Below are positions 15,292-21,229 of a DNA stretch of 21,229 nucleotides, piece by piece. The DNA lies in the IMG/VR virus record IMGVR_UViG_3300023216_000245, positions 1-21,229 of that record; one strand, written 5' to 3'. Position numbers and translations under genes: made by a program. The DNA is from a virus. A model generated the notes under the pieces. That model did not search any database, had not been told where the DNA came from, and worked only from the letters and a program-made list of their open reading frames with translations. Numbering within the stretch: the stretch's first letter is position 1; the number at the start of each line of letters is the position of its first letter.

Positions 15292-16302
15292 TTATGCAAC
15301 TAAAGTGATGTTTTTGTCACCCATATATCCTTTATTATACTCTTCTTGTGTTCGGTCTATTTGGTTATTAGCCAATGAAATATTATCATTCGGTCTCCAT
15401 ACAATAGAATCGTCAGTATTGATAAGGTCTCTTTTTAGTACAGTCATCATTGGTATAAGAGAAGCCTCCAACAAACCACCACATCCGTATCTACACCCAT
15501 TGACCAATGCTATGTATTCAGCTATATCAATTTTAGATTTAATAGACCGAACCCTTAGAGTACCTTTAAGTATAATAAAACAAGACTTGACTTCCACTTT
15601 AGACCCTTCGGGGCAATATGGATTTTTCCCAGCAATCAAGTCATAACCTATTCCATTGTACACCATAGTGCCGTTCACTAATTTACACACATACAACTCC
15701 CCTATCAAAGCACCAAAAGCTGCCCTTAAATTGGTGGAAGAATTTATCTCGTGGTCTGACATTAACCCCAATAATTGATAAGAGGTCATACTGGCCATGT
15801 CGGAGAATCTACCATCATATTCCACTACATTATCAAGGAAGAGTTTAGTATTCTCATTCTTATTTTTATTATTACTATTCACACTAAAATCTGCGTTAAT
15901 GACAAATTTACCGCCTTCACTTTTATATAGGTGGGCTTTAGCGTAAAATTCAAGTGAATCTATGACTGACACTATCACCCTTTCTCTGTGGCTGGTAGTC
16001 AATATGATTGATTCACAGTGACCTTCCTTATTACTTAAATTACTCCAAAGGGTGGTGTTACCTTTACGATAATCAGTCCACTTCACTTCCCCCCTATCAA
16101 ATACAATTGGGGAGTGGTGGTTATAAATTACATCATACCCAAAACCATTATTAACCACACCAGACATCACTTTAGCACCGACTAGTTCAGAAGCGAAACT
16201 TTTAACAGCATTGGTCACCACCATATATTCCAACATGTCGGCGGGACTGATGTATCGTAAGATACCATTCAACAAATCTGTATTTTTTATTGACACTAGC
16301 AT
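15292..16302 (-). CDS. Putative nuclease with two PD-(D/E)XK-like domains
   Basis: No close family is recognised, but the two halves of this 336-aa protein resemble each other and each carries a PD-(D/E)XK-type signature. The first has GFGYDVI (D57) then GEVKW (E72, K74). The second has LIGEL (E202), GIGYDLI (D221) then VEVKS (E237, K239). The segments before them also align (ASELVGAKV versus FGALIGELYV). An Asn/Lys-rich linker (about 141-155) separates the halves. CAGGAG, made of the last codons of the kinase gene, lies before the ATG. Placed at the end of the putative base-modification operon, it could cut host DNA lacking the modification; that role is inferred. Confidence 0.65.
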   Translation of the reverse strand: MLVSIKNTDLLNGILRYISPADMLEYMVVTNAVKSFASELVGAKVMSGVVNNGFGYDVIYNHHSPIVFDRGEVKWTDYRKGNTTLWSNLSNKEGHCESIILTTSHRERVIVSVIDSLEFYAKAHLYKSEGGKFVINADFSVNSNNKNKNENTKLFLDNVVEYDGRFSDMASMTSYQLLGLMSDHEINSSTNLRAAFGALIGELYVCKLVNGTMVYNGIGYDLIAGKNPYCPEGSKVEVKSCFIILKGTLRVRSIKSKIDIAEYIALVNGCRYGCGGLLEASLIPMMTVLKRDLINTDDSIVWRPNDNISLANNQIDRTQEEYNKGYMGDKNITLVA

Positions 16303-16306
16303 AATA

Positions 16307-16849
16307 TCACTCCTGTTTCATTATATAATTAACTACTTTCATTGTGTCTTCAGGAGTTTCATGCTGTATTTCCACAACACAACCCTTCTCTACTCCAAAT
16401 AGAGTGTGTTTATCGCCGAATCGGTCAATGATATTATTGCATTTAGTTCGTACTGTCTGGATGAATTTCGAACTCTGGTCTGAACCACGTTCATCATAAC
16501 GTCTTTGTCGTTCCTCATCAGACACGGTGAGGTGGATAATTGTAAGGTCTTCAACGGATTCAAAGAACCCTTTGTTGTTAAGTCTGTCCCCCTCACCAAC
16601 CACAAATTCATCTGGGTTCGTAGACGCCCATTCAACTGCTTTAGGTGATACTGCCATTGATAGTCTATCGGTTCCAGAGAAAGTTTCGCCTTCCTCGTAC
16701 TTACCAAGGACTCTTATATTCCCCGATACATGGGAATCTAATAAGTCTATTGGACGTTCCTGTACCCATCCATCGTATCTAGACATAAACTCTTTCATTA
16801 CAGTAGACTTTCCACATCCTGGAAGTCCTATAAGGTATACTAATTTCAT
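16307..16849 (-). CDS. P-loop kinase, candidate 5-hydroxymethyl-dU DNA kinase
   Basis: The 180-aa protein opens with MKLVYLIGLPGCGKST (Walker A at 8-16). It continues with VVGEGDRLNN and ERQRRYDERGSDQSSKFIQTVRTK, where Arg/Lys residues could form the phosphate-handling lid. This is the AAA_33/nucleotide-kinase type. Phage 5-hmdU DNA kinases are of this P-loop class and phosphorylate the hydroxymethyl group on DNA, priming it for replacement. Here the gene overlaps (ATGA) with a gene resembling the amino acid:DNA transferases, which supports that reading. It lacks the long helical C-terminal extension known from some of these kinases. A nucleotide or polynucleotide kinase remains possible. GGAGG lies 8 nt upstream of the ATG. 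Confidence 0.65.
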   Translation of the reverse strand: MKLVYLIGLPGCGKSTVMKEFMSRYDGWVQERPIDLLDSHVSGNIRVLGKYEEGETFSGTDRLSMAVSPKAVEWASTNPDEFVVGEGDRLNNKGFFESVEDLTIIHLTVSDEERQRRYDERGSDQSSKFIQTVRTKCNNIIDRFGDKHTLFGVEKGCVVEIQHETPEDTMKVVNYIMKQE

Positions 16850-17865
16850 AAAAATGCCTCCAATCCTCGTTCAATTTTAACATCATTTGAATATAACCAT
16901 TCAAACCTATCCACATTCCCATAATCAATAAGGTCAGAGAACTTTCCTTTGTCGATACCGTTACGACCAATCAATCTATTGTCTAATGATTCTCGACGTG
17001 CTTGCCATAAAACATCCCATTCAATACCGTTCCAGTTATCCGCAGCGACCTTTTGGATTTCCTCCGATTGTCTATCCAAGTAGTAACCAAGATAACGACC
17101 ATGGTGGGATCTAAATATTTTCTTAAATGAGCACAAGGCAGTCTCCATTGTAAACCTATTTGCTTCAAAAGTCAAGTTTGGATGACGCATTTTAGTTTCT
17201 TCTAGAACTTCTGTTGCCATATCTTCAAGGTATTGGTACTCATCTTCAGATAACTTTTGATTTACTTTATCATCCCACCCCGCAACATACAACATGCCAT
17301 TCCTATGGGAACGACTTCCTGAGTAATCATTTAATAATAGGGTTGGTGGTTCATTAGGTATTTCTGCGGTGTGGTTTAGATGTTGTAGGTAGAACCATGC
17401 GGTGTACCTTCCAAACTTATAGAACTCATCCTTAATAACCTTATACAGATTATCAAAGTTCTGACATTCATTATCCCCAAGGTAAGATTCAAGTGCTTCC
17501 CTCTGGGTTCTATCACCAACAAACTCATGATATGATTTAAACATGTTAGGGAGATGCCCCTTTGACCATTTAGTATCAACTTGGTATCTCAGTCTATGGT
17601 AGTTCTCGGTGTTCCACGCATCTATCCTATCATATGTTGCCAACTCAAAGTCTGGGTATTCATTAAATAGAACCCATGCGGTTGGTAGTTGATATGTATT
17701 ACCATATAACCAACACAACCAAAGACGTTGCTCAGAGTTGTGCTCAAACCTTTTGTTTAGATAGTTTGTTAACCAGATAGAAGGATCGCAATCTTTATAT
17801 GTTAAAGACCATGAGAACCATTTAATGAATGATTCTTTCCTGTTTTCTTTTAACCTATAATCCAT
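16846..17865 (-). CDS. Putative amino acid:DNA transferase (aGPT-Pplase-like)
   Basis: A 339-aa, Trp/Tyr-rich protein. The segment WLCWLYGNTYQLPTAWVLF, followed by RLRYQVDTKWSKGHLPNMF, resembles the alpha-glutamyl/putrescinyl-thymine pyrophosphorylase group, whose characterised members transfer amino acids onto activated 5-hydroxymethyl-dU in phage DNA. A second block, KFGRYTAWFYLQHL...DYSGSRSHRNGML, fits the helical DNA-glycosylase-like fold proposed for that group. I recognise this by pattern only. It begins at the GMP reductase stop (TAATG) and its own stop overlaps the kinase start, so the three are translationally coupled. The C-terminus ends GLEAFL, similar to the polymerase tail SLEDFF. 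Confidence 0.6.
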   Translation of the reverse strand: MDYRLKENRKESFIKWFSWSLTYKDCDPSIWLTNYLNKRFEHNSEQRLWLCWLYGNTYQLPTAWVLFNEYPDFELATYDRIDAWNTENYHRLRYQVDTKWSKGHLPNMFKSYHEFVGDRTQREALESYLGDNECQNFDNLYKVIKDEFYKFGRYTAWFYLQHLNHTAEIPNEPPTLLLNDYSGSRSHRNGMLYVAGWDDKVNQKLSEDEYQYLEDMATEVLEETKMRHPNLTFEANRFTMETALCSFKKIFRSHHGRYLGYYLDRQSEEIQKVAADNWNGIEWDVLWQARRESLDNRLIGRNGIDKGKFSDLIDYGNVDRFEWLYSNDVKIERGLEAFL

Positions 17866-19043
17866 TACAGATATTTTTCATATACCCTATTATGGGTATC
17901 ATGACACATAACAAAAGTTGTACATTTGCTAAGATTTTTTAATTTCATCGCTCCTACATACGTACAAGTGCTACGCAACCCACCGAGAATATCTTGAATG
18001 GTTACTCCGACTGATCCTTTATATGGAACCAAAACTTCTCTACCTTCTGACGAACGATATTCTTTTAATCCTCCAAAATGTTTCTTATTGGCTGCTTCGC
18101 TACTCATTCCATAAAATTGTACAAACTTTTTTTCTTCAATTTTATATTTTTGGTTCTTTAAGTAATTGTAGCTTTTATAGTTTTCAAACTTATGGCCGCC
18201 CCCATATTTTAATTCATTTGTTTGATAGTATTTAGTAATAATAGTACCGCCCCCTTCGTCATGACCTGCCAACATACCACCAAGCATCACAAAATCGGCT
18301 CCGGCGGCAAATGCTTTTGCTACATCACCTGAGTAAGTACATCCTCCATCAGCAATAACAAGACCTCCCAGTCCATGCGCCGCATCTGCACATTCAATAA
18401 CTGCACTTAGTTGTGGGAAACCGACACCAGTCTGTATACGTGTTGTGCAAACACTACCTGGGCCTATACCTACTTTAACGATATCTGCACCATTTAGAAT
18501 TAATTGTTCTGTCATTTCTCCAGTAACCACGTTACCTGCAATAATTACAATATATGGATACTTGTCTCTAAACTGTTTAACAAAAGATACAAATCTTTCA
18601 CTATATCCATTAGCAACGTCAATACAAACATACTTTAAACATTGGCCAACTTTACTATATACTTCTTCAAACTTTTCACTATCATATGGACGTATACCGA
18701 TACTTATTGCAACATTTTCTGTACGGTTTGTAGTATAATGCAAGGATTGATCATCAAAATATTCAATAAGGTCGTCAGCACTATATGACTTAACTAAACA
18801 GGTAAATAACCCTGCTTTTACCAAACAGTCTGCCATTTCAAATGTTGCCACACCATCCATATTACTTGCAATAATTGGAATGCCCCAATAGTGATGGGCC
18901 ATATTATTTGGAAAATTTGGCAAATAGTTACGAAATGTGAACTTTCTACTTAAATCAACTTCTTTACGGCTACCTAATACACTACGTTTAGGCCTAATTA
19001 GTACATCCTTAAAATCTAACTTTACATCATTATCTATTCTCAT
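17865..19043 (-). CDS. guaC: GMP reductase (GuaC type)
   Basis: Catalyses NADPH-dependent conversion of GMP to IMP. The sequence follows E. coli GuaC closely: KLDFKDVLIRPKRS at the start, CIDVANGYSERFV, IVIIAGNVVTGEM, VKVGIGPGSVCTTR with the catalytic Cys at 199, FPQLSAVIECADAAHGLGG and FVMLGGMLAGHDE. GuaC lacks the CBS domains of most IMP dehydrogenases, as here. At 392 aa it is ~45 longer than E. coli GuaC, mainly through a Lys/Tyr-rich insertion at about 268-305. An IMP dehydrogenase role is less likely. It lies 12 bases after the GNAT-like gene with only a weak ribosome site. It may shift purine pools toward adenine nucleotides for an AT-rich genome. Confidence 0.92.
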   Translation of the reverse strand: MRIDNDVKLDFKDVLIRPKRSVLGSRKEVDLSRKFTFRNYLPNFPNNMAHHYWGIPIIASNMDGVATFEMADCLVKAGLFTCLVKSYSADDLIEYFDDQSLHYTTNRTENVAISIGIRPYDSEKFEEVYSKVGQCLKYVCIDVANGYSERFVSFVKQFRDKYPYIVIIAGNVVTGEMTEQLILNGADIVKVGIGPGSVCTTRIQTGVGFPQLSAVIECADAAHGLGGLVIADGGCTYSGDVAKAFAAGADFVMLGGMLAGHDEGGGTIITKYYQTNELKYGGGHKFENYKSYNYLKNQKYKIEEKKFVQFYGMSSEAANKKHFGGLKEYRSSEGREVLVPYKGSVGVTIQDILGGLRSTCTYVGAMKLKNLSKCTTFVMCHDTHNRVYEKYL

Positions 19044-19055
19044 ACCACTAATCCA

Positions 19056-19784
19056 TTATAAATACTTTCTAAGATAAAATTCCCCAACTTTGTCAATCGC
19101 TTCATCCACCTTTGGTTGTTTCTTTGGCCCAAATGAATTTTCTTCATCCCTTAATCTAACTCTATTCTTTCCAGGCGGTAGAATATAATCCAAGTTATCC
19201 TTCCAATTATCACGCAATTCAAGTTGTTCTTCGCGTGTAGGTTTGATTGGAATATCAACACGAATAGACCCTGATGGATCCGTTCCCCACCCAATGATAC
19301 CATTTTTCATATGCCATCCAATAGAAGATGGAGTGCAAGACATCTTTAACCTTGTCACCGTTCCATACAAGTTCTTCATGATCATCCAATACAAATGTCC
19401 AGCATAACCCTTTTCAATAGTAAAGATTTCATAGAGGTTTGCGTATGGTTCTCTTTCTAACGTAGTTATCATACACACCGCCAATGGATTGTCACCATAC
19501 CATAAACAGTACGGCGGATGCTTATCATATGATTTGAACCTCACCCAGAGGTTGTGGGCGGCCTTAGCAAACTTTAAATTTTCGTTATTAGATTCGGACA
19601 TATAATCAAGGACACGTTCCATCCCCTTTTCATCCAACCGACTCATATGTATATCGGGCTCGGTAGAAATTGGAAGTCCATCATCATCAAGTTGATGGTC
19701 TTCGAAATCAAGAGTTTCGAATGCAGACTTTATGTAATCGATACTTTCTTGGGTATATTTTTTCATATTAGGTTTAGGTATCAT
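19056..19784 (-). CDS. GNAT-like protein (putative N-acyltransferase), 242 aa
   Basis: The middle (about 95-170) has a GNAT-like layout: YCLWYGDNPLAVCMITTL, then NLYEIFTIEKGYAGHLYWMIMKNLY in the place of the acetyl-CoA-binding strand and helix, then a strand and SIGWHMKNGIIGWG. The Q/R-x-x-G-x-G/A loop is not clear, so the assignment is tentative. The N-terminal and C-terminal parts are charged and unassigned. The frame opens at a TTG (19802), but the ATG at 19784 follows the leader shared with two other genes, so I choose it. It heads the operon with GMP reductase, the putative DNA transferase, the kinase and the nuclease. A role acylating a modified base is speculative. Confidence 0.5.
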   Translation of the reverse strand: MIPKPNMKKYTQESIDYIKSAFETLDFEDHQLDDDGLPISTEPDIHMSRLDEKGMERVLDYMSESNNENLKFAKAAHNLWVRFKSYDKHPPYCLWYGDNPLAVCMITTLEREPYANLYEIFTIEKGYAGHLYWMIMKNLYGTVTRLKMSCTPSSIGWHMKNGIIGWGTDPSGSIRVDIPIKPTREEQLELRDNWKDNLDYILPPGKNRVRLRDEENSFGPKKQPKVDEAIDKVGEFYLRKYL

Positions 19785-19815
19785 AATATATTTCTTTTTC
19801 AATTAATAGAGGGCC

Positions 19816-19851: not shown

Positions 19852-20454
19852 TTAAGGTTGTGTGTCGGTTCCATCAAAGTCCATCCTTTCAATTCCTTCT
19901 ACTCCTGCCCTGCGGGCAATGTCACGAGTTGAGGTTACAATAATATTATTTCCATCTTTGGCAACCCACATAGGGCGTTTACCATTCCTGAAGAATTCCA
20001 TTCCATCTTTGGTCAATGTTATAGTAGATATAGATGCATCACCCCACTCACTTGGAGATGTATGGAACAATAACTCAGAATCGTTTTTAGTTTCACAATC
20101 AATACCATATAGATCCTTCCATTTGTCTGGGGATTCTTGGGTGATAACACCATTGTGAACTATTGATTTATCGTCATCAGCGATTGGTTGGTTGTACTTT
20201 AGATCCGACGTGGAGTACCTACAATGGCCAATGGCAAGAATGTTTCCATCCTCTATCCATTCTGATGGGTCATGTTTCTTAATGAATTCTTTTGCAGGGA
20301 TAGGTTCTTTAATTGTCACAACCTTACCCGATTTAATAAAGGAAACTCCTGTTGCATGCATTCCGCGAACCTGTGATTCATGGAATATCCTACGAATTTG
20401 ACTTAGGTCGTCGTCAGTTACATTATGTAATTTTAAACCTATCACCGCACACAT
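19852..20454 (-). CDS. Class II glutamine amidotransferase domain protein
   Basis: A 200-aa stand-alone glutaminase domain of the PurF/GlmS type, releasing ammonia from glutamine. Cys2 becomes the N-terminal nucleophile after Met removal. Typical motifs follow: RGMHATGVSF (30-39), GHCRYST (76-82), NQPI (88-91), HNGVI (100-104) and NDSELL (124-129). There is no attached synthase domain, so the acceptor must be another protein, perhaps in the modification pathway. It starts 3 bases after the dioxygenase stop. The ribosome site is weak, which suggests coupling. Phage-encoded class II amidotransferases of this size occur in marine T4-like phages. Confidence 0.88.
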   Translation of the reverse strand: MCAVIGLKLHNVTDDDLSQIRRIFHESQVRGMHATGVSFIKSGKVVTIKEPIPAKEFIKKHDPSEWIEDGNILAIGHCRYSTSDLKYNQPIADDDKSIVHNGVITQESPDKWKDLYGIDCETKNDSELLFHTSPSEWGDASISTITLTKDGMEFFRNGKRPMWVAKDGNNIIVTSTRDIARRAGVEGIERMDFDGTDTQP

Positions 20455-20457
20455 TAA

Positions 20458-21229
20458 TTAAAAGAATCCCTCTAAAGTAGATTGTTTTTCATTTGCCTTT
20501 GGATGGTATTTGTTTAGATATTCAGACTTATTATTTTTCCGCAAGAAGTTATACCATTCTTCCTCTTCCCACATGTTAGATGAGATACCATTCCACAATG
20601 GTTTCCATAACCTATGGTCTTTGTTTAGTCTGCGGGAATCAACATAATCCCTTCGAGAATCTTCGTAATCCTTTGTACCTAACAAGAGCATCTTCTCTCT
20701 AAAGTACATCACAAGGGAAATACGTTCCATGTCCTCAATTGACTTACCTTCGGGTGGTATCATCTCCGTGTTACCGTGAATACCAGCGTGGTTGTTAACC
20801 AATAGTAAGTCGCCTGGACGGATGTTAATGGCAACCCTAAACTCAGGAAGAACTAAATAACCACCTTCCCAATCTTTGTCCTTTGCAATAACTGTTAGGT
20901 TGGAGTAACCATCGTTAAGATCTCCCGCATCTCTATGACACGCAGTCCTAAAGTTTTTGTTTACCGTAATGGTTGTGAATACAGTTCGTTTGCCACCAAC
21001 CCTGAATTGTTCATCAAGTTTATCTGCTTGTTCTTTCTGATATGCAAATCTCCTTGGGAGGAGTTCTTCAAACTTCTCCGATAAACGTGTGGTGAATGGA
21101 TAACACTTCTTGTATGTATCGTAATTGAATTCGGTATAAGATGTTGCACGACCAAATGGTATTCGTGGATATCTATCAAAAAACCCTGCAATACCAGATA
21201 GAACCGCATTTGCGTAACTAGTGTCCGAT
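20458..21229 (-). CDS. TET/JBP-type 2OG-Fe(II) dioxygenase, 5' end cut by the window
   Basis: At least 256 C-terminal residues are present; the frame is open to the window edge. The pattern FTTITVNKNFRTACHRDAGD gives the Fe-binding HxD (H98, D100 of the visible part). Then GGYLVLPEFRVAINIRPGD, the distal His (NNHAGIHGN, about 147-151), and ERISLVMYFRE with the 2-oxoglutarate-binding Arg. This layout matches phage members of the TET/JBP family, which oxidise the 5-methyl group of thymine or 5-methylcytosine in DNA. The WNGISSNMWEEEEWY tail also recurs in phage homologues as I recall them. The protein ends QSTLEGFF, a perfect Q-x-x-L-x-x-F-F clamp-binding motif. Base specificity cannot be read from sequence. 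Confidence 0.82.
   Translation of the reverse strand, partial: SDTSYANAVLSGIAGFFDRYPRIPFGRATSYTEFNYDTYKKCYPFTTRLSEKFEELLPRRFAYQKEQADKLDEQFRVGGKRTVFTTITVNKNFRTACHRDAGDLNDGYSNLTVIAKDKDWEGGYLVLPEFRVAINIRPGDLLLVNNHAGIHGNTEMIPPEGKSIEDMERISLVMYFREKMLLLGTKDYEDSRRDYVDSRRLNKDHRLWKPLWNGISSNMWEEEEWYNFLRKNNKSEYLNKYHPKANEKQSTLEGFF

Follow-up and report, generated by a model that had tools for sequence, protein, structure and literature searches.

A putative tandem PD-(D/E)XK nuclease with two active sites, encoded at the apparent end of a phage base-modification operon

The modification operon and its terminal gene

The window, as the whole stretch of 21,229 bases analysed is called here, is a virus fragment (record IMGVR_UViG_3300023216_000245). 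It hosts a run of genes (Table 1) which, in the order of transcription, encode a TET/JBP dioxygenase, a glutamine amidotransferase, the protein u248, a GMP reductase, an amino acid:DNA transferase (ADDT), a kinase, the protein P0001 to which this work is devoted, phrog_459, an AAA ATPase and a gp45-type clamp. A second record, L002, is 99.8% identical to the window over 12,042 bases (L011/L002), extends it upstream, and carries the TET/JBP gene in complete form (L002:2415-3845). The clamp, and a gp46-like ATPase encoded upstream in L002, point to a T4-like phage, which probably modifies its own DNA. The modified base is not claimed to be thymine, since either T or 5-methylcytosine could be the substrate of a TET/JBP enzyme, and the record covers a fragment only. 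In the same fragment, no cognate methyltransferase was identified among the neighbouring genes searched (Pfam, PHROGs, NCBIfam).

Table 1. Positions in the window of P0001, its domains and sites, and the surrounding genes
Feature	Position	Strand	Evidence
phrog_459 ('peptidase'), 701 aa	13047..15152	(-)	
P0001, tandem PD-(D/E)XK (predicted)	15292..16302	(-)	ORF; AGGAG RBS; four-relative profile E=5.1e-19, two domains
Domain 1, residues 30-161	15820..16215	(-)	hmmsearch i-E 8.4e-11; hhalign 4.9e-7 (single comparison); AlphaFold2 of residues 1-169; PDB matches
Domain 2, residues 183-304	15391..15756	(-)	hmmsearch i-E 2.3e-6; hhalign 2.1e-6 (single comparison); BLAST to L296
Site 1, D57 to K74	16081..16134	(-)	motif; alignment
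Site 2, D221 to K239	15586..15642	(-)	motif; alignment
P-loop nucleotide kinase (Ploopntkinase3), directly upstream of P0001	16307..16849	(-)	PF18751 1.4e-15
Amino acid:DNA transferase (ADDT)	16846..17865	(-)	PF18724 1.3e-18
GMP reductase / IMPDH-like	17865..19043	(-)	PF00478 9.6e-71; NCBIfam GMP reductase above cut-off
Unknown 248-aa protein (u248), common to related modification operons	19056..19802	(-)	comparison of related operons
Glutamine amidotransferase	19852..20454	(-)	PF13522 1.5e-10
TET/JBP dioxygenase gene, 3' part	20458..21228	(-)	PF12851 2.2e-22 on the L002 copy

P0001 is the 336-aa product of an ORF on the minus strand; the plus strand across the same interval is interrupted by 18 stops. 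The start codon lies 4 bases past the stop codon of the kinase gene, which is overlapped by the AGGAG ribosome-binding site, and a gap of 139 bases with a promoter-like site follows the gene. Because of the short gap, the overlapping ribosome-binding site and the promoter-like site found beyond, P0001 looks like the last gene of the base-modification operon, to which its expression would be coupled. The location at the end of this operon, proposed in the earlier note, is thus borne out, the identity of the neighbours being supported by Pfam assignments.

The organization of related operons is variable. The GMP reductase-like gene resides in none of the ~80 related operons compared. Gene order is fluid, and the TET/JBP gene follows the kinase gene, rather than preceding the amidotransferase gene, in L026, L031, L035 and L046. 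In many relatives (L012:6248-8995, L015, L017 and others), the place taken here by u248 and the GMP reductase, after the amidotransferase gene and before that of ADDT, is occupied by three further genes (~295, 195 and 440 aa), which suggests differing final base modifications. The phrog_459 gene that follows the operon has just upstream a promoter-like site with a TG before the -10 box.

P0001 is an accessory component of this setting. In the closest relatives by ADDT (L012-L014, 69%), only ~60 bases separate the kinase gene from the same downstream pair, phrog_459 and the AAA gene, P0001 being missing. Among close relatives the gene is either present or absent at one and the same junction, a distribution that also fits a homing-type nuclease. 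No P0001 homologue was found in loci from the ~80 related modification operons, which implies that the phage life cycle does not need it, nor in 39 other whole records of relatives.

Two homologous domains in one chain

Searches of Pfam, PHROGs, NCBIfam and PADLOC with P0001 gave no match, those of PDB sequences nothing beyond two chance-level matches per half, and tblastn against plasmids and 50,697 phages either no match or fragments at E >1. Among viral and genome contigs scanned for exact 8-mers, the near-identical record alone matched P0001. The protein is known from two near-identical records only, and the putative nuclease family to which it belongs is unrecognised by current databases.

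The residues that had drawn attention to this protein, D57/E72/K74 and D221/E237/K239, are found in P0001 exactly at those positions, the gene strand being the minus one. Site 1 lies in the context GYDVI...GEVKW, site 2 in the context GYDLI...VEVKS. An extra helix Glu is likewise duplicated (E39 in domain 1, E202 in domain 2), and domain 1 additionally features a C-terminal ENTKLF stretch at residues 150-155. At the DNA level, the pattern NG-x-GYD-x...EVK occurs twice in the 21-kb window, both times inside P0001, and never in 100 shuffles, a test that is post hoc, the pattern being derived from P0001's own sites. A survey of 84,980 genomes retrieved the motif not only in PD-(D/E)XK NOV_C domains but also in RuvA and further unrelated proteins, and the motif by itself was for this reason rejected as proof of a PD-(D/E)XK enzyme. 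NOV_C proteins (PF13020) share the NG-x-GYD...EVK core with P0001, but are bacterial proteins with other architectures; membership of P0001 in NOV_C was discarded, as no Pfam match was obtained at E 10. The motif of P0001 rises above chance because each half resembles independent viral proteins over the whole domain.

These proteins were retrieved by scanning viral contigs at the DNA level with degenerate patterns for the GYD...EVK core, followed by translation. At least four single-domain viral relatives, 155-188 aa long, have been identified (L290, L129, L319 and L296); as the patterns are exact, with codon constraints, the family is certainly undersampled. At least two of the four sit in T4-like phages. 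L319 adjoins genes for a gp32-type SSB and a gp59-type helicase loader, L296 is near a dCMP deaminase gene, L290 near an exonuclease gene and a gene resembling homing endonucleases. The relatives are homologous to P0001 over each whole half, and share with it the Glu, GYD-x-I, EVK and later conserved positions. They differ in having one copy of the domain and in their surroundings, where the sequence available shows no modification operon.

In BLAST comparisons, made against small databases, the C-terminal half matched L296 at 1.3e-6 over 122 aa, the N-terminal half L290 at 4.7e-6 over 112 aa. A search among 5,717 ORFs with a profile built on the four relatives, P0001 being left out, retrieved P0001 and resolved it into the two consecutive domains listed in Table 1. 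Since the relatives had themselves been chosen by motif, shuffled controls were made to keep the motif residues: hhalign scores of the two halves against the relatives were 46.5 and 42.9, those of the shuffles (60 each) at most 25.3 and 27.3. The hhalign E-values refer to single comparisons, and judgement was based on these controls instead. In the six-row alignment, E43, G52, GYD-x-I, EVK, K91, I98, I111 and N148 (L290 numbering) are kept in all six rows; among 24 aligned sequences Y56, D57, I59, E72, V73 and K74 are invariant, and E39 nearly so. Conservation of the catalytic sites in homologues, on which the original assignment was staked, is apparent in both sets.

The two halves are 21% identical, about as distant from each other as each is from the single-domain relatives, and their direct comparison is only suggestive (7 of 1000 shuffles reach the observed score). 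Judged from the sequences, either the domain was duplicated long ago or two paralogues were fused. A further viral family (alignment A5, including L196, L140, L145, L206 and L225), made of proteins of ~150-190 aa with the signature NSITKG...GE...YDLI...EVKTK, is profile-linked both to the P0001 family and to DenB; the members tested have no Pfam or PHROG assignment.

AlphaFold2 modelling was limited to the N-terminal half, because all rows of the full-protein alignment with relatives landed there; a model from the single full-length sequence (pLDDT 31) was discarded. Residues 1-169, modelled with 24 aligned sequences, reached a pLDDT of 83.1 and a pTM of 0.80, part of this confidence coming from F2 family rows that deepen the alignment and are motif-selected and distant. 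The similarity of the F2 family extends outside the motif, which supports its use. In the model D57 lies at the start of the strand 58-61, E72 and K74 within the next one (68-76), and E39 in the preceding helix (26-45). The best PDB matches are NhoI (Z 10.3), I-Ssp6803I (9.9), Eco15I (9.1), Hjc (7.1) and PvuII (6.7); as Z <8 is common in the fold-search tool, such values were weighed only within a consistent list. These proteins, represented for NhoI and Eco15I by the N-terminal domain, are separate single-domain chains, unlike P0001, and are 8-16% identical to it over the aligned part. A phage 'DNA endonuclease IV' ranks 24 among viral fold matches. The PDB matches are dominated by the PD-(D/E)XK fold, and domain 1 is accordingly predicted to have the PD-(D/E)XK core, in keeping with the expectation that the N-terminal half be restriction-endonuclease-like. 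The assignment of domain 2 rests on homology. The proposal that one chain unites two PD-(D/E)XK domains, the site of each being intact, has thus gained support from profile, hhalign and BLAST comparisons, and from the model of the N-terminal half; both the fold and the duplication of this predicted tandem, two-active-site protein are well supported.

A remote link to T4 endonuclease IV

The DenB family (phrog_1360) is the top PHROG for both L129 (E 0.019) and L290 (E 0.054). Alignment of 13 DenB proteins reveals an invariant Asp and an EVK, placed after a helix with a conserved Glu. The family profile scores against them 43.5 when built from four sequences and 50.8 when built from six (E 2.9e-6 to 1.8e-7), while the highest score was 23.9 for reversed DenB, 19.4 for 60 column-shuffled controls and 18.8 for unrelated families. 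These values support a sequence link between the P0001 family and T4 endonuclease IV (DenB) that is remote but real. A possible bridge between DenB and F2 is the viral protein L308:9134-9688 (+), matched by both profiles (7e-7 and 2e-6, respectively).

A PD_D/ExK motif has been reported independently for DenB (PMC12405507). During host DNA breakdown the enzyme cleaves dC DNA that is unmodified, and spares the modified phage DNA (PMC6071114, PMC8056088); carriage of DenB has been suggested as a marker of phages whose DNA has non-canonical bases (PMC8056088). The resemblance to P0001 involves a remote profile similarity over the N-terminal helices, the Asp strand and the EVK strand, and residence in a phage with modified DNA. 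In contrast to P0001, DenB is a single-domain protein which has one site and works unaided, its substrate being dC DNA in single strands (PMC6071114, PMC12405507). In T4 the gene lies between rIIB and ndd, that of P0001 between the kinase gene and phrog_459. P0001 itself did not match the DenB model phrog_1360, and on the grounds of profile and gene context it was not filed as DenB, the comparison being kept in the sense of 'works like' only. The parallel drawn in the earlier note with the T4 strategy, in which nucleases cut unmodified host DNA, holds therefore in part: the position at the operon end and the link to DenB above controls speak for it, the lack of a DenB profile match for P0001 and the different context against it.

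Possible roles of P0001

P0001 may be a single-chain PD-(D/E)XK endonuclease with two active sites, formed by duplication or fusion of a domain of ~150 residues that some T4-like marine phages carry singly. Both sites would bind Mg2+ and hydrolyse DNA, and the two domains, as a built-in dimer, would introduce double-strand cuts or paired nicks. Single-chain restriction enzymes with two catalytic sites in one polypeptide do exist, as BsrI and Mva1269I (PMC4081073), P0001 sharing this trait as far as can be told from its sequence. Yet, those are sequence-specific bacterial enzymes with two different sites, described as fusions of ancestral heterodimers (PMC4081073), whereas both halves of P0001 come from one family. 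As T4 DenB does, P0001 may attack unmodified host DNA early in infection, the phage's own hypermodified bases protecting its DNA. Such protection is chemically plausible, because hypermodified thymine derived from 5hmdU protects phage DNA from restriction enzymes (PMC6449724). Of the functional readings, this attack on unmodified host DNA is the favoured one, credited with about an even chance; it counts against it that DenB targets single-stranded dC (PMC6071114, PMC12405507), and that T may be the base modified in this phage. The fuller scheme, in which a single-chain dimer of a DenB-like nuclease would make double-strand breaks in any DNA without the phage's hypermodified base, modification and destruction being paired in one operon, is put forward tentatively, and is on the whole doubtful.

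The main rival to host DNA attack is homing. According to this hypothesis P0001 is a free-standing mobile nuclease whose gene spreads as the enzyme cuts the empty junction of related phages, the two domains reading the halves of a long asymmetric site. It ranks first among the rivals because P0001 is present or absent at one junction, the kinase gene and phrog_459 adjoining without it in L012-L014. The best fold matches include a homing enzyme of PD-(D/E)XK type, I-Ssp6803I, and the single-domain relatives reside in unrelated contexts, one of them sharing its contig with a gene that resembles homing endonucleases. Yet, the 4-base gap and the overlapping ribosome-binding site are those of an integrated operon member, P0001 has no similarity to known homing families in Pfam, PHROGs and NCBIfam, and patchy presence is also normal in host-takeover genes; homing is a serious contender, and is held to be unlikely. 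The same anatomy and operon position, and the accessory distribution, would also suit an enzyme directed against competing DNA (superinfecting phages, plasmids, prophages) rather than the host chromosome, the modified phage DNA being spared, and the restriction enzymes NhoI, Eco15I and PvuII are among the best fold matches. Such a role seems quite improbable, as neither a methyltransferase nor an immunity partner was found beyond the modification operon, and PADLOC gave no match.

Very little weight is given to the notion that P0001 is a structure-specific recombination or repair nuclease akin to Holliday-junction resolvases, the tandem replacing the usual dimer. The occurrence of Hjc among the fold matches and of replication genes nearby (the gp45 clamp and, in L002, the gp46-like ATPase) would fit, but close relatives have these replication genes and lack P0001, and in T4-like phages the resolvase job is usually done by gp49. 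Least probable of all, and hardly to be expected, is that P0001 binds DNA as a regulator or as a dead enzyme, and owes the motif to descent only: nuclease activity in this family is so far predicted, but neither half has lost any catalytic position despite 21% overall identity.

Discrimination between self and host DNA depends in T4 on the modification of cytosine and on nucleases with a single site. The phage lineage described here, a different one, pairs an operon for TET/JBP, kinase and amino acid transferase with a putative two-site nuclease, and the P0001 family connects T4 DenB, remotely in sequence, with other PD-(D/E)XK proteins. If P0001 spares modified DNA, the pairing of modification and destruction would have arisen with other base chemistries as well, the enzyme would aid in identifying the modified base, and may represent a monomeric, modification-sensitive nuclease reagent.
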